This document shows positions 4,255 to 27,719 of a DNA stretch of 29,745 nt, piece by piece; the first letter of the stretch is position 1, and the number at the start of each line of letters is the position of its first letter. The translations under genes and the position numbers were made by a program. The notes below the pieces were generated by a model. It saw only the letters and a program-made list of their open reading frames with translations, was not told the DNA's origin and searched no databases. The DNA is from a virus: positions 1 to 29,745 of IMG/VR virus record IMGVR_UViG_3300002144_000846, one strand, 5' to 3'.

Positions 4255-4929
4255 TTACTTTAAATCAGATGGGATTGGAGTTCCTACTGGATACGGTTTG
4301 CCTTCTATGGCTGCTGTGATTGATTTCATGCCGGATTTAACTGGAATTGCTTTACGTAAGGGAACGGCTGCTTCATTTAATGGGCCAAAACATCTAGCTA
4401 ATATAATACCTGTTTCGGTAGTGTCAATGATTTGACAAGGCATACAGAACATATTACTTTCACTTGTATGTGGTGAATCTGTATTTACAATAAAAGCACG
4501 ATTATTAGGTTTCATCATTTCCCAACTAAGAGTAGATGGGTTGAATTGAGGAATAGAAGTTGATGTGTCAAAATAATGATATAATGACCAAACGGATTTA
4601 CCATCCCATCTTGTACTTCCATCGTTACCCGGAAATTGAAAATCTTTTTTGACATTAAATTGACCTTCAGTACCCATAATTTCACCCCAACTTGGACTTA
4701 CACCCTCCATTGCTAGATTTGAAATTGAGGTATCTGGGAATACAGGACATATAGCACATCCTTCCTCGAATTCAACACCTTGCACAATAATTTTTTTCCC
4801 GGTTGGTACTGCTCCTGATGCACCACAAAATGCATAGTAACCTTCGTGTAGTTTAACTACATTTTCTACTTTTTCAGTGCAACTAAACAACATTGTAGCT
4901 GCAACAATTGATAATAATACTTTTTTCAT
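4255..4929 (-). CDS. Predicted lipoprotein with two CxxC motifs, unknown function
   Basis: A 224-residue protein with a clear type II signal peptide: basic MKK, a hydrophobic core and lipobox LFSC, making Cys17 the lipidated residue. The mature part has two CxxC pairs, Cys58/Cys61 (CAIC) and Cys162/Cys165 (CMPC), plus Cys35 and Cys180. It therefore could bind a metal or form disulfides once outside the cytoplasm. I recognise no domain. It is the third gene of a unit with the 286-residue lipoprotein and a 178-residue unknown, which begins at a late-type promoter at 6430-6445. Its first 15 bases and leader peptide closely match the other lipoprotein. It may be displayed on the host envelope or carried in the particle; the sequence does not say which. 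Confidence 0.75.
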   Translation of the reverse strand: MKKVLLSIVAATMLFSCTEKVENVVKLHEGYYAFCGASGAVPTGKKIIVQGVEFEEGCAICPVFPDTSISNLAMEGVSPSWGEIMGTEGQFNVKKDFQFPGNDGSTRWDGKSVWSLYHYFDTSTSIPQFNPSTLSWEMMKPNNRAFIVNTDSPHTSESNMFCMPCQIIDTTETGIILARCFGPLNEAAVPLRKAIPVKSGMKSITAAIEGKPYPVGTPIPSDLK

Positions 4930-4964
4930 TTTTTTTTGTTTTGATTTTATTTTTATTTTTATTT

Positions 4965-5540: not shown

Positions 5541-6401
5541 TTAAATTTCATCTTCAGCTATTACTCTAATGTTTGATATTTTAAAAGAACCATCACATAC
5601 ATTAGACCAACTTTTACAAGCTGGATCATTATAGTTATACCACTCTTTCCCATTAATCTGGTATTGGTCTGGTGAATATCCTGTCCAGTATGAAGAAACT
5701 ATAGACCATCCACTTTCCATAGCATCACTTAAACCTGTAAGATCATCAATGCTACTATCGTTAGCTTTTGTGTGTGATAAAAAGTCATACACTACAACAC
5801 TATTACTACCTTGAGAATAAGTAACAGTCATATTAGTATAAGCAGTATCAAATTCAATTACTATATCAAATGGTTTTGATGGATCAATTACAGTTGCATT
5901 ATTAACTCCATTTCCCGGATTAGATAGGTAATCTTGTTTCCAACAGCTATTTGTATTGATTGAATTTAAATAAGAAAATTCTAAACTTTCTTTATTAGCT
6001 GAGTTACTTGTACCTAAATGAACTGTGGTTTGAGAAAGTACATTTCCATTAGTTTCCATAAAATCAATCTCATTACAATATGTAGATGATCCACCAGCAT
6101 CACAATACCCAGGACCACCATTTATCATATAAAATGATGCGTTTACGAAATTTAAATTGTTTAAACCAGATAAATCTACAGTAGCTGTAATTTTACTTAC
6201 GTTTTTATACTTTTTAGTAGATTGAACTCTACCTTCTCTAAAATCAATTGACCCATCAGAGTTAATTGCAGGAACTAAACCACAGTACTGACCTTGAACC
6301 CCTGTAAATGTGGGTGTAAAAGTTGATGTGGTTGATGTTGTTTTGTTGTTACAACCTAATAACATTGTAGACGTAACTAATAATAGTAATACTTTTTTCA
6401 T
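5541..6401 (-). CDS. Predicted lipoprotein with concanavalin A-like, GH16-type glucanase features
   Basis: A 286-residue protein with a type II signal peptide (MKKVLLLLVTSTMLLGC, lipid Cys17) and a Thr/Ser-rich linker to about residue 33. The body has the order seen in GH16 enzymes: a strand with ASFYMI (about 88-93), then EIDFME with Glu111, Asp113 and Glu116 matching the E-[ILV]-D-x-x-E catalytic motif, then TTVHLG and FDIVIEFDT strands. Flanking Cys pairs (GYCDA and YCNE) also recall GH7 enzymes, so the exact family is open. If active it would hydrolyse a glucan-type polysaccharide at the cell surface. It is the first gene after a terminator and a late-type promoter. Confidence 0.68.
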   Translation of the reverse strand: MKKVLLLLVTSTMLLGCNNKTTSTTSTFTPTFTGVQGQYCGLVPAINSDGSIDFREGRVQSTKKYKNVSKITATVDLSGLNNLNFVNASFYMINGGPGYCDAGGSSTYCNEIDFMETNGNVLSQTTVHLGTSNSANKESLEFSYLNSINTNSCWKQDYLSNPGNGVNNATVIDPSKPFDIVIEFDTAYTNMTVTYSQGSNSVVVYDFLSHTKANDSSIDDLTGLSDAMESGWSIVSSYWTGYSPDQYQINGKEWYNYNDPACKSWSNVCDGSFKISNIRVIAEDEI

Positions 6402-6429
6402 TTTTTTGTTTTTATTAATTAATTAATTT

Positions 6430-10646: not shown

Positions 10647-11576
10647 TTATTTTATTTGTAAGGATTCAAAACAATCTTTTACCCAAAAATCTAGATTTCT
10701 AATTATTCCACCTAATTGATCCTGATTATACATTGATATGAATTGATCGGGAAGATACAAAATATCTTTGGATTTAACAACCGAATTTAAATATTTTTCA
10801 TCATTTTTATCAATCATAGGTTTAGATAAATCCATAATTTTAAAATTTGTTTCTATAGATGAAAAATTTTGAAGTATTCGGGCGTATATTACATTTTCTT
10901 TAAATTTCTCTTCACATATTTTATAGATATCATCTAAAGTTAAATCACGCTCACTTAATTCAGGAAATAGTTTATATAATTTTTTAGGTCCTAATCCTTT
11001 AATACCCGCAACCTTGTCAGAATTGTCTCCCATTAAGGTTTTGTATAAAATGAAATTATTGGGGGACATTTTGAATTTTTCAATAACTGTATCTACTGTA
11101 TAGTATTCTTTTTCCATAGGGCGGTATACAATTACATTTTCATTTATTAATTGTAAGAAATCCTTATCTGAAGATACTATGAATACTTTATCTTCTTTCT
11201 TTTGAGGAATTACATCACTTAAATAAGCGATAATATCATCAGCTTCAACTTTATCTAATGTTACTACTTTAACTGGTAGTGTTTTTAAATATTGGATAAT
11301 ACGAACCATTTGGTCTATTTTAGCATCATCTTCATCATCTTTATCATCAAAAGCATCCCAATTTGTAATACGTTGTAAATCTCTTCCAGATTTATATTCA
11401 GGGAGGAGGTTTTTTCTATTATTAGAAGAACCTGCCCCATCAAATATTACATAAACTTGAGTTGGTTGCATTTGACGTATCATCGCTCCTAAGGAACGAA
11501 AAAAACCACCTAAACCCCCAATATGTACCCCATCAGGATTAACCATATTAAGTATTGCGGGAACGAAAAAAACCAC
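10647..11576 (-). CDS. 5'-3' exonuclease / flap endonuclease (T4 RNase H-like), C-terminal part of a gene split by a tandem duplication
   Basis: The frame carries most of a FEN-family nuclease that removes RNA primers and 5' flaps. After a junk start (MVFFVPA, read across the repeat junction) come VIFDG and YKSGRD, then VEADDIIAY, SSDKDFLQL and MGDNSDKVAGIKGLGPKK (acidic metal-binding motifs plus the helix-hairpin-helix). The true N-terminus with the first catalytic Asp (LMIDGLNLFFR) lies in another frame at 11548-11742. The two parts are separated by a 67-bp tandem repeat. Deleting one copy gives a continuous protein of about 342 residues, so the native gene is 10647-11742. The helicase follows 15 bases after its stop. 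Confidence 0.88.
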   Translation of the reverse strand: MVFFVPAILNMVNPDGVHIGGLGGFFRSLGAMIRQMQPTQVYVIFDGAGSSNNRKNLLPEYKSGRDLQRITNWDAFDDKDDEDDAKIDQMVRIIQYLKTLPVKVVTLDKVEADDIIAYLSDVIPQKKEDKVFIVSSDKDFLQLINENVIVYRPMEKEYYTVDTVIEKFKMSPNNFILYKTLMGDNSDKVAGIKGLGPKKLYKLFPELSERDLTLDDIYKICEEKFKENVIYARILQNFSSIETNFKIMDLSKPMIDKNDEKYLNSVVKSKDILYLPDQFISMYNQDQLGGIIRNLDFWVKDCFESLQIK

Positions 11577-11625
11577 CTAAACCTCCAATATGTACTCCAT
11601 CAGGATTAACCATATTAAGTATTGC
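11493..11625. repeat. 67-bp tandem direct duplication inside the exonuclease gene
   Basis: Copy A, 11493-11558, and copy B, 11560-11625, are 66 bases each with a period of 67. By eye they differ at two positions, both C in copy A and T in copy B, and both are third-codon synonymous changes in Gly codons. Because 67 is not a multiple of 3, the duplication shifts the reading frame. Confidence 0.95.
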
Positions 11626-11742
11626 AAAATTTCTAAAAAATAGATTTAACCCATCTATCATTAGTATTCTTTCTCCTTCTACAGTCTCTTCTCCTTGCTC
11701 ATCCATGTTATTGAGGAGCTTAAGTAAATCTTTTTGTTTCAT
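11548..11742 (-). CDS. 5'-3' exonuclease / RNase H-like, N-terminal fragment of the split gene
   Basis: A 64-residue frame that holds the real start (MKQKDLLKLL) and the first catalytic strand ILMIDGLNLFFR (Asp30 in DGLN), typical of the PIN/FEN nuclease N-terminus. After GGLGGFFRS it runs out of frame into the repeated segment and stops three codons later. The remaining protein is in the frame 10647-11576. An early/middle-type promoter lies 20 bases upstream, within the terminator of the uvsX transcript. As written the gene could not give an active nuclease without a frameshift or repeat contraction. Confidence 0.85.
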   Translation of the reverse strand: MKQKDLLKLLNNMDEQGEETVEGERILMIDGLNLFFRNFAILNMVNPDGVHIGGLGGFFRSRNT

Positions 11743-11756
11743 GTGTATTTTATTAT

Positions 11757-11781
11757 GGGGGGAATATACGAAATTCCCCCC
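11757..11781 (-). terminator. Intrinsic terminator after uvsX, overlapping a promoter
   Basis: A 9-bp perfect stem GGGGGGAAT/ATTCCCCCC (11757-11765 with 11773-11781) has a 7-base loop. On the minus strand it is followed by ATAATAAAA. The hairpin's loop and one arm contain the promoter core TTCGTATATT for the next gene. Confidence 0.78.
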
Positions 11782-11791
11782 GGATAACCTA
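11763..11791 (-). promoter_or_regulatory. Early/middle-type promoter (copy 2) for the exonuclease-helicase-nrdB-nrdA unit
   Basis: The core TTCGTATATT at 11772-11763 (minus strand) has GG at 11789-11788, 15 bases upstream, in the context TTAGG. It is 20 bases upstream of the exonuclease ATG at 11742 and lies inside the terminator hairpin of the preceding gene. Confidence 0.65.
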
Positions 11792-11795
11792 ATCT

Positions 11796-12872
11796 TTATT
11801 TGGGTTCATCTGTATGAGACATGATGTCAGTATATGCTTCATCTTCTTCAGCAATTATAAAATCTCCACCACCTAGAATTTTAGTCCAAGCCTCTTTGTG
11901 TTCCTCTTTATAATCCTTTAAAGCTTTATCATCATCTAAGATAAAACCATGAGGTGTCATAACAATTTTACCTCTAGTAGTAACTCCATTAATGTGGTTT
12001 TTGTCAATTTGTAGATTAGTACGCTTTGCAAATTCTACCTGCTTACCATCTTTAATTGCTTTGATTTTAGAGGTTCCGGCTGACATTACATTACCAAATG
12101 TTACTACAAATGTTGAATCAAACCACATAGCATATCCACCCTTATTCATTAGTTTGGGTTGCCCCATAGGTGATTCTGCTTTTAATGTCCATACTTTATT
12201 AATACAAACTAATGTATTTGTGTAAGGATTACTCTCTTTACGAGACATTACTATGCGTTGATTAACGTTATTTCCAAATTGAGTTGACATTGCGCCGGCG
12301 TTCCACTCGTTGTTGTTTTTATTGGATTTTAACGACATTTCACATGGGACTGACCCAATTGAATCCCAACAGAACATCAAGTCATAAGGTAAATTACCAC
12401 TTTTCTGTTCATCCAGTAAATCTAGAATAAAACCTGCTACATCTTCAATTGAGTTAATAGTTTCTCTATCTACATAAATAAAATTACCATTATAATCTAC
12501 AATTTCACCCGTTTCTTTATCAACAACTTCATTAACTTCTAACCCCATCATTCTAGCATGTTCCCAGGACCACTTCATTTCTGTAATGATGAATACTGGT
12601 AAAATACCTCGTTTTTGGGCTGATACAGCTCCTTCAATCATTGCTGTTGTCTTACCTGTATCTGAATGACCACGAAGTAGTACAATATGCCCCATAGGGA
12701 TACCAGGTACAGAAGTTATCTCTTGATAAGCTTCTGATAGTGGTATCCATGATTGTTCTTTAAATTTTGCTTTAGAAGATAGTCCTTTCTTAGTTTTAAA
12801 GCCATCTAAATTGAAATTTGCTTTAATTTCTGAGGAGACTGCCTCCGATAGTGATTTTTTAGGTCTTGCCAT
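11796..12872 (-). CDS. uvsX: UvsX/RecA-family recombinase
   Basis: A 358-residue strand-exchange ATPase that acts with the SSB in recombination-dependent replication and repair. Walker A is GHSDTGKT (68-75). Glu98 (ITEMKW) is in the position of the RecA catalytic Glu, and Walker B ends at Asp170 (MFCWDSIG). The region MSTQFGNNVNQR and the GGYAMWFDSTF segment fit the L1/L2 DNA-binding loop area of RecA-like cores. The N-terminus is basic and Lys/Ser-rich, and the C-terminus is acidic (AEEDEAYTDIM), as in UvsX. It starts 9 bases after the SSB gene, so the two partner proteins are co-transcribed; a terminator follows its stop. Confidence 0.92.
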   Translation of the reverse strand: MARPKKSLSEAVSSEIKANFNLDGFKTKKGLSSKAKFKEQSWIPLSEAYQEITSVPGIPMGHIVLLRGHSDTGKTTAMIEGAVSAQKRGILPVFIITEMKWSWEHARMMGLEVNEVVDKETGEIVDYNGNFIYVDRETINSIEDVAGFILDLLDEQKSGNLPYDLMFCWDSIGSVPCEMSLKSNKNNNEWNAGAMSTQFGNNVNQRIVMSRKESNPYTNTLVCINKVWTLKAESPMGQPKLMNKGGYAMWFDSTFVVTFGNVMSAGTSKIKAIKDGKQVEFAKRTNLQIDKNHINGVTTRGKIVMTPHGFILDDDKALKDYKEEHKEAWTKILGGGDFIIAEEDEAYTDIMSHTDEPK

Positions 12873-12881
12873 ATTTATTTT

Positions 12882-13715
12882 TTAAAAAGGTAAATCGTCG
12901 GTTTTCTCATCATCATCAAATAGTGAATCGAATTTATCACTAGTTGATTGTTTAGGTTTTGCACTCAAAGAATAATTTGATTTTGGAGTACTTTTAACAT
13001 CATTATCAAAGGCAACCTCAGGTTCAGAAGTGATTTCTTCATCATCTTCAGGAGTTAACCACTCTTGTAGTGCTAATTTCATTTCATCATAGCTTAATGG
13101 TTTAAAGACTTTTTTAGGATCAACTTGATCTTCTAAAAATTTCTCAATTTCATCACTACTTTCAGATAATGGGGATGTTTTCATAGATGGACCTAATGTC
13201 GTACGGTTATAAGGAGTACCTGTAGATTCAGGACCAACCGTATTTAACTTAATGTCACGACCTTGAGAAAAATCAGTAAAATCACCTACTTCTTCATCAG
13301 CAGCTAATTGTAGAAATGCTTCGTAAATTTCTTTACCAAATTGCCACAATTTTACTCCTTCGCTTTCTTCACCACGTACAACTACAGGTGCAAATATACG
13401 AGTTTTAGCATCTAACTTTTTTGCTAATCTCCAATTTTCCTTGTCATTACTTTGACGTAGTTGTTTAGCAAACTCCATAATTGGGTCTTTTTCTCCCCAA
13501 TTAGTAGGTGATGCCATTACCTTTTTACTACCAATACCATAGTAAAATTTCATTTCAGTAAATGGGTTTTCTTTATTGTACTTAAAAGGTACAACTCTAA
13601 CTGTTTGTTTACCTACTGAGGGCTTCCAAAACATGTTTTTACCTCCCCCAGAACTCTGGTTTGATGAGGATTTTTGCATCTGATTAAGACGCTGTTTGAT
13701 TACATTCAAATCCAT
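12882..13715 (-). CDS. Single-stranded DNA-binding protein, gp32-like, without the zinc site
   Basis: A 277-residue protein that coats ssDNA and organises the replisome. The N-terminus, a short basic helix followed by a Ser/Gly/Asn linker, matches the cooperative B-region of gp32-type SSBs. Next is an OB-fold opening FWKPSVGKQTVRVVPF with aromatic residues (MKFYYGIG). The protein contains no cysteine at all, so the T4 gp32 zinc-binding His-Cys3 subdomain is absent. The C-terminal 80 residues are acidic and end DDEKTDDLPF, a tip like that of bacterial SSBs (DD-[IL]-PF) that recruits partner proteins. An early/middle promoter lies 35 bases upstream, and uvsX follows after 9 bases. Confidence 0.85.
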   Translation of the reverse strand: MDLNVIKQRLNQMQKSSSNQSSGGGKNMFWKPSVGKQTVRVVPFKYNKENPFTEMKFYYGIGSKKVMASPTNWGEKDPIMEFAKQLRQSNDKENWRLAKKLDAKTRIFAPVVVRGEESEGVKLWQFGKEIYEAFLQLAADEEVGDFTDFSQGRDIKLNTVGPESTGTPYNRTTLGPSMKTSPLSESSDEIEKFLEDQVDPKKVFKPLSYDEMKLALQEWLTPEDDEEITSEPEVAFDNDVKSTPKSNYSLSAKPKQSTSDKFDSLFDDDEKTDDLPF

Positions 13716-13750
13716 AATATAACTTATTTTTATTTATTTATTAATAACTC

Positions 13751-13780
13751 AATATACGAACAATAATTGGCGATGCCAAA
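13751..13780 (-). promoter_or_regulatory. Early/middle-type promoter (copy 3) for SSB-uvsX
   Basis: The core TTCGTATATT at 13760-13751 has GG at 13777-13776 in the context TTTGG. TTTG followed 20 bases later by TATATTGA is the best fit in the window to the Bacteroidota -33/-7 promoter form. It lies 35 bases upstream of the SSB start. Confidence 0.7.
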
Positions 13781-14251
13781 TTATACTTCGATAATTTTAA
13801 AAATCTTTGTATTTAGTTGTTTTAACTCATTATGCTGAGTAAGAAGAATACAGTTTCTATAATGCTGCCAATCAATTCTAAATTTAGAATCTACAACACC
13901 ACCATTTAACCCTTTAATTACTTCATTCAGGGCATTAATAGTGTATAATGTATTAGAGTCTTTTTTACGATGTACTAATATTGTGTTGTCTGGAATTGAA
14001 TTTATATTTCCTTGGTCCACATTATAAGTAACAACATATTCGTCATTACTCTTAACATGAAGAACAAACATCTTATTATACATTATCTTGTACTTAGAAG
14101 TAAGATTCTCAATTAAAGAATCTAAATCCTCTAAGGTTGTAAAGGTGCAAAAAAGTTTATTATTCAAATCGTTAATGTTTAGAGGAGTAGCAAAATCATA
14201 CTGTCCCGTATACATATAACTATTATTCTGTAAAATCGTAGGTATCTCCAT
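13781..14251 (-). CDS. Hypothetical protein downstream of DNA polymerase
   Basis: A 156-residue protein of mixed alpha/beta pattern with aromatic-rich N-terminus (SYMYTGQYDFATPL) and no signal peptide, membrane segment or recognised motif. From the ATG at 14251 it overlaps the polymerase by 29 bases; an in-frame ATG at 14215 would avoid this and start 8 bases after the polymerase stop, so either start is possible. A copy of the early/middle promoter motif lies inside the polymerase gene, 155 bases upstream of 14251. It may be a replication accessory factor judging only by its position between polymerase and SSB. Confidence 0.65.
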   Translation of the reverse strand: MEIPTILQNNSYMYTGQYDFATPLNINDLNNKLFCTFTTLEDLDSLIENLTSKYKIMYNKMFVLHVKSNDEYVVTYNVDQGNINSIPDNTILVHRKKDSNTLYTINALNEVIKGLNGGVVDSKFRIDWQHYRNCILLTQHNELKQLNTKIFKIIEV

Positions 14252-15494
14252 AACTTATTTTTGATGCTAATTTATAGCTTTTAATTATATTTTTAATAAC
14301 ATTTACAATATCTTTCTCCTCTTTATCTAAATCTAACAAAAAAGCATCATAAGTATATAATACTAACTTTGTTTTCTTACCTCGGAGCGATTTTAATATT
14401 TCCCACAATATACGAATGTTGGTTGAAGTTTCCAAGTTTTGAAGAACATAATTCAACAACTTTTGCGGCTTCATATCTTGTGTATCATCCTTCCTAAGTA
14501 TATACCCGGATTGCGGCATTTTTATCCAACCTTGATATTGAAATGTATCCCACAAATCATCCGTATATGCTTGCACCATTTTAAAGAACTCCAGGTTTTT
14601 ATATTGGTCAAATACTCCTCCATATAGTTGTTTAAATGTTAGTTCCTTAGCTTTTTTATAATCCACCCCATACATTTCGGAAAATGCTTTGTGGATATCT
14701 CCCTCCCCAAACTCATAACCAATTTCATTAGCTAGTAGAGTGGGGTGGTATGCACTAATGTCTAATTCGAGGAGAATATCATTACGTGGGATGAAACATT
14801 GTCTCGATCCATCTTCTTTATTAAGTGCTGCATAATTAACTCCATTAAAGGTATTTGAGGGACGAGTTGTTAGAGTTTTTAAATTATACTGCGTATAAAC
14901 ATACTCACCATCAATTTTATGAAATCTCTCCTCAAACAACTCTTTATTTACTCGAAGGCCATTAGATTCAATTGCGGAGAATACAATTGATGATCGTTTA
15001 TTAAACCATTGGCAATAATCATCTTTACAATCTATGTTAAATACGTTCAAATCACTAAAAATCGCCTCCGTGTATTCATAGTGCTTAACCACCGGAATTA
15101 TACGGTTTAAATCGCGTTTGCTACTATGGTGTTGGTAGAAGTGATTGTATGAGTGGGGTTGTGCTGGTATATATGTATTATGTGTTGGTTGAGTGTCAAA
15201 AAGAGCTTTTAGAGGTAAATATTGTAATGTAGACTTTTTATCTCTTACATATATTTTTTTTATCTTACTTAATATTTCTATTACCGCGTTTAATTCTAAT
15301 GATAGTGTCTCACTATGGTCAATACATAACATATAACCTTTATGCGCCTTTAAAGGGCGTACATACAATAATGATACGTTGTCAATGTTAGGATGAGTTT
15401 TAAAATTATAAGGAATTACCTCTAAAAACACTTCATCAAAACCTTGACAGCTAAAATCTTCTAATTGTTCGCTATCTTCTATTAACCAAAACAT
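14223..15494 (-). CDS. Short, divergent family A DNA polymerase
   Basis: A 423-residue polymerase. TTRPS (about 209-213) aligns with the TGRLS segment of Pol I. Motif A is LDISAYH (Asp245). The O helix K283-xxx-F287-xxx-Y291-G292 has the exact Pol I spacing. Motif C is YTYDAFLLDL (Asp383). Both catalytic aspartates are kept. Unusual changes are His250 in place of the Glu steric gate of motif A, and Tyr-Asp-Ala in place of His-Asp-Glu in motif C. The N-terminal ~150 residues have a faint exonuclease-domain pattern but no DxE signature, so proofreading is probably absent. The promoter motif ends only 6 bases before the ATG, suggesting a leaderless transcript. Confidence 0.82.
   Translation of the reverse strand: MFWLIEDSEQLEDFSCQGFDEVFLEVIPYNFKTHPNIDNVSLLYVRPLKAHKGYMLCIDHSETLSLELNAVIEILSKIKKIYVRDKKSTLQYLPLKALFDTQPTHNTYIPAQPHSYNHFYQHHSSKRDLNRIIPVVKHYEYTEAIFSDLNVFNIDCKDDYCQWFNKRSSIVFSAIESNGLRVNKELFEERFHKIDGEYVYTQYNLKTLTTRPSNTFNGVNYAALNKEDGSRQCFIPRNDILLELDISAYHPTLLANEIGYEFGEGDIHKAFSEMYGVDYKKAKELTFKQLYGGVFDQYKNLEFFKMVQAYTDDLWDTFQYQGWIKMPQSGYILRKDDTQDMKPQKLLNYVLQNLETSTNIRILWEILKSLRGKKTKLVLYTYDAFLLDLDKEEKDIVNVIKNIIKSYKLASKISYGDTYDFTE
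14407..14436 (-). promoter_or_regulatory. Early/middle-type promoter (copy 4), internal to the polymerase gene
   Basis: TTCGTATATT at 14416-14407 has GG at 14433-14432 in the context CTTGG, the same spacing as the intergenic copies. It lies in coding sequence (Asn-Ile-Arg-Ile-Leu-Trp) and would drive the 156-residue gene. Confidence 0.5.
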
Positions 15495-25346: not shown

Positions 25347-25835
25347 TTAGTAATTCAATACACAGTAATCCATACCTATAGTAACTGTTAAGTTTTGTGC
25401 TGCTGCTTCATTATCCCAGTTGTACTCACCAAATTCTGCGGCTTTAATAAAAGCTCCTTTGATAATCCATTCTGAAACAATATCACCTACAGGACCTAAA
25501 ACATCAATAGTTAAATCCTTTTTATAGAAATCACTATAACCATCTCTACCTGTTACAGACTCATGATGTAAACGAACCCATTCCATTACGGCTTGTGCAC
25601 CTGAAGGAGTGATTGGGTCGAACATAGTCATTGTTAAATCATTCCATTTTAATTTACCCTTAATTTTTCGATACGTGTTGATGTGATTAAGAACAATTTC
25701 TTCCTGCGAGAATCCGACGGATGAAATACCCTTAATTGTATACGATGGAACACCGTCAACATACATGATAAATCTATTCTGTACCTTAGGTTCAAAAGCT
25801 GTGAAAAATATTTCGTTTGGATCTATTACTGCCAT
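25347..25835 (-). CDS. Tail tube protein, gp19-like
   Basis: A 162-residue protein, the usual length for the tube of contractile tails. The pattern FEPKVQNRFIMYVDGVPSY, then GFSQEEIVLNHINTYRK and GKLKWNDLTMTMFDPI is typical: a two-sheet beta barrel with an N-terminal FxPK-x-x-NRF motif. The tube stacks as hexamers inside the sheath and carries the DNA. It follows the sheath gene with a 52-base gap that holds a strong late-type promoter, and a terminator lies after its stop, so it can be made in excess as a single-gene transcript. Confidence 0.93.
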   Translation of the reverse strand: MAVIDPNEIFFTAFEPKVQNRFIMYVDGVPSYTIKGISSVGFSQEEIVLNHINTYRKIKGKLKWNDLTMTMFDPITPSGAQAVMEWVRLHHESVTGRDGYSDFYKKDLTIDVLGPVGDIVSEWIIKGAFIKAAEFGEYNWDNEAAAQNLTVTIGMDYCVLNY

Positions 25836-25860
25836 TTTGCTTTATATTATATTGTTATTT

Positions 25861-25876
25861 TGTTATAAATATTAGA
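25861..25876 (-). promoter_or_regulatory. Late-type promoter for the tail tube gene
   Basis: The minus strand reads TCTAATATTTATAACA. It is 25 bases upstream of the ATG at 25835, exactly the same distance as the near-identical copy before the sheath gene. Confidence 0.75.
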
Positions 25877-25887
25877 TTTTTCTTTCT

Positions 25888-27606
25888 TTATGCTGGGAAA
25901 GTTGCTCCAGTTGGTAAAACATTAAAATCTAGGTAAATGAATTCAGCGGTTTTAGTTGGTTGTAAGTAAATTTGACCAATTAATTGGTTTCTATCGATTA
26001 CATCCGCTGTATTATTACTATCATCCATGATTACTTTAAACGCATACAAACCTTGTCTTTGTTGTACTGATTCTAAGTATGGGTTAACTTGACTTAAAAA
26101 TGCATTTCTAGTAGCAATAGTATTTTGTTCGAATACTAAATTATCTGCAACTTGTGAAATATAAGTTTTAAGTTGAATTAATAATCTTCTAACATTTACT
26201 CTATCTAAAGCCGAAGCTCTAGTTTGTAGTGTTTTTTGTCCAAATACTACTACACCTGATCCAGGGAATGAAGCTATTGGGTTTACTTTACCTTGGTACA
26301 ATGTATCTCTGTTTGATTGTGAGAATTTTCTTTCAGGACGTACTACTGTAGCTAATCCACCTCTATTCAAACCTGCAGGTGCAAACCATGCTTCTCCTAC
26401 TCTATCATTATAAGCATAAACTCCTGGAATCATTGTTGAAGCTGGAACCCATACTAATTCTCCGGTTTCTGGGCTTGTCGTTTGTAACCATGGGGCATAA
26501 ACGGCAGCGTAACTGGAATTATATGATGAAGCTTCTGATGTCATAGCATTAATTGTAGCACCATATGTTGAAGCATCTACAATTGCGATTGCATCTCCTC
26601 TTTCTTGTACCATATTAATTAATTTGGTAGTTGTTGAAGGTGCAGTTTCAATCATAATACCAGGTACTGTGATTGAGTTAAATAGATATTCATCTTGATT
26701 TGATAATAAATCAATTGAAGTTGTATAATTAGTATTATTTAAACCTTGAATATTCGCAGCGGTAGTAATTTGCTCATTAAATGCAGCTCCGGCTGTTTCA
26801 AAATAAACTTGACCTGTTGCGTTTTCAAATGAACCACTTGCTACTGCTGGTAAAGATGCTGTATATTCTCCTTTAAAATCTCCATTATTGTCAAAATATT
26901 GAGGAGTTTTGGCATTTACAGCTGAAACATATACGTATCTTGATCTGTTAGGATAAGTACCATTATCTTGAACATATGGTGTTGTATCACTAGTATTAAT
27001 TGATTTGTAACTATCACCTATTACTTTTGAAATATAATTTGGTGCCGTAGGATCTAATGATAAGTTAGCATATGATTCTAATACTGTTTTTGAATCTGTA
27101 GTATCATTACCTCTTCTAACTAATAATGAAAATGTACCTGAAGAAGTGCTAAATCCTGCTACTTCCCATCTTAAATTATCAATTGAACCTGAAACTAAAG
27201 CTCCATTAACTTCTGATCCTGAACTATTCATAATAGCACCTTCACCAAATGTTTTTAATGTAAATGAAGTTGTTACTGGTGCTTCACTACCTGAAATGTT
27301 GGTTGAAGTTGCGCTTGTAAATGATCCCGATACAACTCTAGTTACTAACAGTGTAGTTCCACCATTATTAAAGTAGTTATAAGCTGAATTTGAAGTTAAG
27401 AATTCTTGTTGCAAACTTGCGCTTAAGAAAGTTGTTCCGAATGCTTGAGTATATTCACTATATGAAGTTACTAAAGTTGGGATTCCAACTGGACCTTTAA
27501 CTGTTGGGCCTATAATAGCCGCACCTGCTTGAATTGGTTGAGCGGTTATTGCTGAAAGATCGTTCTCTCTAGCTAATACACCTGGGGATAATAATGTTTC
27601 TGCCAT
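25888..27606 (-). CDS. Tail sheath protein
   Basis: A 572-residue contractile sheath subunit. The N-terminus (ETLLSPGVLARENDLS) and the first domain motif GPTVKGPVGIPTLVTSYSEY followed by FG match the sheath family. The C-terminus (AEFIYLDFNVLPTGATF) matches the strand that is exchanged between neighbouring subunits. Variable Ser/Thr-rich insert domains fill about residues 95-300. It polymerises around the tube and contracts at injection. It is followed by the tube gene, as in T4-like phages, and preceded by a strong late-type promoter. This gene makes the myovirus assignment firm. Confidence 0.95.
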   Translation of the reverse strand: MAETLLSPGVLARENDLSAITAQPIQAGAAIIGPTVKGPVGIPTLVTSYSEYTQAFGTTFLSASLQQEFLTSNSAYNYFNNGGTTLLVTRVVSGSFTSATSTNISGSEAPVTTSFTLKTFGEGAIMNSSGSEVNGALVSGSIDNLRWEVAGFSTSSGTFSLLVRRGNDTTDSKTVLESYANLSLDPTAPNYISKVIGDSYKSINTSDTTPYVQDNGTYPNRSRYVYVSAVNAKTPQYFDNNGDFKGEYTASLPAVASGSFENATGQVYFETAGAAFNEQITTAANIQGLNNTNYTTSIDLLSNQDEYLFNSITVPGIMIETAPSTTTKLINMVQERGDAIAIVDASTYGATINAMTSEASSYNSSYAAVYAPWLQTTSPETGELVWVPASTMIPGVYAYNDRVGEAWFAPAGLNRGGLATVVRPERKFSQSNRDTLYQGKVNPIASFPGSGVVVFGQKTLQTRASALDRVNVRRLLIQLKTYISQVADNLVFEQNTIATRNAFLSQVNPYLESVQQRQGLYAFKVIMDDSNNTADVIDRNQLIGQIYLQPTKTAEFIYLDFNVLPTGATFPA

Positions 27607-27631
27607 TTTATTTTGAGTTATAAATGTGTTT

Positions 27632-27647
27632 TGTTATACATATTAGA
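27632..27647 (-). promoter_or_regulatory. Late-type promoter for the tail sheath gene
   Basis: The minus strand reads TCTAATATGTATAACA, one base different from the tube-gene copy, and is 25 bases upstream of the ATG at 27606. The rest of the gap to 27719 is AT-rich with no other clear element. Confidence 0.75.
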
Positions 27648-27719
27648 TTTTTTATCAAAATTTAAAACTATTATGATAATTCATTTAATTTTATTCCACA
27701 ATACATATGACATGGTTAG

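Follow-up and report, generated by a model that had tools for sequence, protein, structure and literature searches.

A tandem repeat that splits a phage 5'-3' exonuclease gene is very probably a false duplication from metagenome assembly

The virus record analysed here (29,745 bases, in the following called the window) contains a 5'-3' exonuclease gene which is divided between two reading frames, and this raises the question whether the gene is broken in a phage or only in the contig. The first-pass annotation had proposed that a tandem duplication breaks the gene. Indeed, the repeat was found, and the N-terminal open reading frame (ORF) and the remainder of the gene are in different frames. 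According to the ORF list, the N-terminal fragment (11548 to 11742, minus strand, 64 aa, with the MIDGLN motif) starts at the ATG at 11742 and ends with a stop just past the site where the two repeat copies meet. The remainder is an ORF of 309 aa at 10647 to 11576 on the minus strand. It matches the N-terminal resolvase-like domain PF02739 (E = 4.1e-30, profile positions 20-163), the exonuclease family PHROG 107 (E = 7.2e-37) and the C-terminal SAM-fold domain PF01367 (E = 3.2e-9), the latter with 37.6 bits, which just misses the curated cut-off of 40.

By its domain content and its location near uvsX-like, gp32-like and DnaB-like replication genes, the nuclease is an ordinary phage 5'-3' exonuclease, which has 341 to 343 aa in the relatives; unlike these, it is split over two frames, and this was seen in the present contig only. 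Since genes for ribonucleotide reductase and for a contractile tail are found in addition to the replication genes, the window represents part of the genome of a myovirus-like phage. The replication genes are also adjoined by a 423-aa ORF (14223-15494, minus strand), which has no Pfam match and whose residues 199-404 show a weak similarity to the PHROG 17 DNA polymerase (E = 1.2e-5). This ORF possibly corresponds to a short or split DNA polymerase.

A repeat search of the window revealed a direct repeat (11493-11558 and 11560-11625) with a period of 67 and 97% identity, which is the sole strong tandem repeat present (score 252; all others 61 or less). The period of 67 had been recognized before, while the copy length of 66 bases assigned at that time has to be corrected, since the natural registers comprise 67 bases each. 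Copy A, the first in the sense of the gene, extends from 11559 to 11625, and copy B, the second, from 11492 to 11558, both on the minus strand. Also, the copies had been described as differing at only two sites, both of them third positions of Gly codons. These two sites exist (GGA/GGG at 11596/11529 and at 11584/11517), but they are not the only ones: a third difference, CTA/TTA, is located at 11559/11492 and affects the first position of a Leu codon. All three of the 67 sites at which B is unlike A are synonymous in the frame of the gene. Base 11559, the frame-shifting "extra" base which seems to be a spacer between 66-base copies, is this third difference. The second copy shifts the frame, since 67 equals 3x22+1.

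The closest relative found is the contig IMGVR 3300020185_000265 (L039), which shows 93-99% identity to the window over most of the region 11626-14600. L039 harbors one copy of the stretch in an uninterrupted gene. This copy is identical to A at 67 of 67 positions including the strain-specific junction base 11559, and to B at 64 of 67, the mismatches being the three A/B sites. Past the junction base, L039 reads on as TAGGAGCG..., which is the rest of the gene, while the window jumps back 67 bases to the start of the repeat. That L039 carries A together with its junction base, after which the gene continues, argues that copy A, last base included, represents a normal allele of one strain, truncated at 11559. 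Copy B has the look of another allele, running on into the rest of the gene. These data support the proposal of the first-pass annotation that the copies stem from two different strains, each of them intact. The inferred join of the two strain haplotypes lies between 11558 and 11559 (minus strand). Comparison of the window and L039 on both sides of it revealed no microhomology at the breakpoint, and neither the join nor any other part of the window contains N, so that the copies are not separated by a gap.

The end of the L039 contig (at 6164) falls within this exonuclease gene, 97 nt beyond the repeat, and at least three further related contigs are present in its metagenome. Both observations are consistent with strain-rich samples breaking assemblies at this place. 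The gene is also cut on its 3' side in L007, L035, L036, L038, L040, L042 and L045, in some of them only through the locus boundaries.

The divergence between A and B is 4.5% (3 per 67 nt) and all silent. Over the adjoining 1,314 nt, the window and L039 differ at a mean of 2.94 sites per 67 nt (4.4%), and of the 48 codons that differ within the neighbouring uvsX-like gene, 42 are changed silently. Since the copies are as divergent as the window and L039 next door, where the differences are mostly silent, a two-strain origin fits both the amount and the kind of the A/B difference. The probability that three of three changes are silent by chance is 0.014 if changes in this stretch are random and 0.035 if only transitions are considered. 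All three sites vary among the relatives.

Comparison with related genomes, which had been recommended as a check, revealed a single copy at all 117 fetched loci covering the site (approximately 112 distinct contigs, as some loci overlap), and all of them align straight through. No tandem duplication of similar length and identity was detected in 1.0 Mb of related sequence. The first 44 loci, which were examined as DNA, each have one copy, and wherever the gene is complete it encodes 341 to 343 aa. The length of approximately 342 residues predicted earlier for the intact nuclease was confirmed by the genes of 342 aa in four of the closest complete relatives (L002 to L005). Thus, intact single-copy versions exist among the relatives examined, and in the real phages the nuclease is presumably intact.

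The junction motif was found in no other contig of the viral collection searched, from which close neighbours of the window may be missing. No separate contig of haplotype B was recovered either: a pattern left open at the two Gly sites gave only L039, which is of the A type, and more distant relatives. When strain B was sought on the downstream helicase side, no near-identical contig was obtained, the closest showing approximately 86% identity at the protein level. A search with the DNA of the gene gave no match to known phage records. There was no sign of a join of unrelated phages, L002 and L003 being approximately 88-90% identical to the window on either side of the join.

Based on these sequence comparisons, the apparent duplication is very probably an artefact, namely a false "heterotype" tandem duplication generated in metagenome assembly by concatenation of two strain haplotypes. 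We suggest that two strains of one marine myovirus-like phage co-occurred and differed by three silent changes in this stretch. The piece of haplotype A, coming from the uvsX-like side, would stop at base 11559, and the piece of haplotype B, which leads towards the helicase, would begin 66 bases earlier in the gene. If such contig ends, sharing a 67-base overlap with 3 mismatches, remained unmerged and were instead joined one after the other, the contig would acquire a second tandem copy and a shifted frame. The two copies in the window, the strain identity of A and the single copy of the relatives are observed, and from these we infer the assembler step. Some assemblers use a k-mer size of 67, the same as the length of the overlap.

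The emergence of illusory duplications from adjacent haplotype contigs is a documented mechanism (PMC2864568; PMC9516828), and chimeric contigs were common in simulated viromes (PMC4247695). The locus resembles the 'duplicated overlapping contigs' of Kelley and Salzberg 2010 (PMC2864568), a class recognized by the alignment of contig ends and by mate pairs, in that overlapping haplotype contig ends would lie side by side, the copies differ in a SNP-like manner and the whole looks like a recent duplication. Further, as in a false heterotype duplication, the copy differences match strain polymorphism, being three silent changes at naturally variable sites and of a strain-level amount, and one copy (A) occurs alone in an independent sequence. 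In contrast to the published cases, however, the haplotypes would belong to co-occurring phage strains in a metagenome and not to the two chromosomes of a diploid, and the overlap is only 67 nt long, with no N gap. Gaps between copies are listed in PMC9516828 as a common characteristic of false duplications; they are frequent, not required.

The first-pass annotation had offered an assembly join or recombination between variants as a pair of explanations. We favour the assembly join over an in vivo event because the breakpoint lacks microhomology, because a broken gene is unlikely to keep silent changes only, and because the L039 contig ends close to the repeat in a metagenome with several related contigs; against recombination in particular, the junction is absent from all other viral contigs searched. 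If a genuine 67-bp tandem duplication had arisen in a single phage genome by slippage or illegitimate recombination, and three silent substitutions had followed in the inactivated gene, the sequence would be the same as that of the artefact, and adjoining registers of exactly 67 nt each are what a simple tandem duplication gives. Nevertheless, we consider such a duplication very unlikely: it was seen in no relative examined, a divergence of 4.5% is too old for an otherwise clean broken copy, and the retention of silent changes alone (3 of 3, P about 0.014-0.035) is not expected of a broken gene. Out-of-register joining of two co-infecting strains in vivo would agree with A being a natural strain allele and with B differing from A as another strain would. 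However, such a recombinant would carry a broken replication gene and yet must have been sufficiently abundant to prevail in the assembly, and with a breakpoint devoid of shared bases and a junction found nowhere else among viral contigs it is very improbable.

It is very improbable that the repeat serves as a functional expansion-contraction switch, or that +1 frameshift read-through yields a nuclease with a 22-residue repeat, although the entire frame would become readable through a +1 shift towards the end of copy A. The copy-number variation between relatives expected of tandem-repeat phase variation was not detected, copy number being constant over the 117 loci, and the complete genes in the first 44 loci are of uniform length. 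Thus, the contraction-expansion on/off switch, previously named as the alternative, is unsupported, and a real two-copy allele that reversibly switches off the exonuclease in the phage population is extremely unlikely. Ribosome bypassing of the T4 gene 60 type was also considered, but was dropped because no insert that could be bypassed is present in the relatives.

The assembly join, if correct, is a reason for caution, since in contigs of viral metagenomes, short out-of-register joins of strain haplotypes can be mistaken for tandem duplications and pseudogenes. Such joins can be recognized by copies which differ by silent changes only, and by a frame-shifting base which is itself a strain polymorphism.

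Two other pairs of similar stretches were noticed in the window. The 67-nt stretches at 6352-6416 and 4880-4946 are 80.6% alike and are located at the 5' ends of the ORFs 5541-6401 and 4255-4929, both of which start with MKKVLL and have the look of a lipoprotein signal sequence. This pair probably represents a shared upstream region and signal peptide. The 56-nt stretches at 27597-27652 and 25826-25881, which are 78.6% alike, belong to the tail sheath and tail tube genes, of which they cover the upstream regions and starts, and may correspond to a shared promoter or ribosome-binding region.
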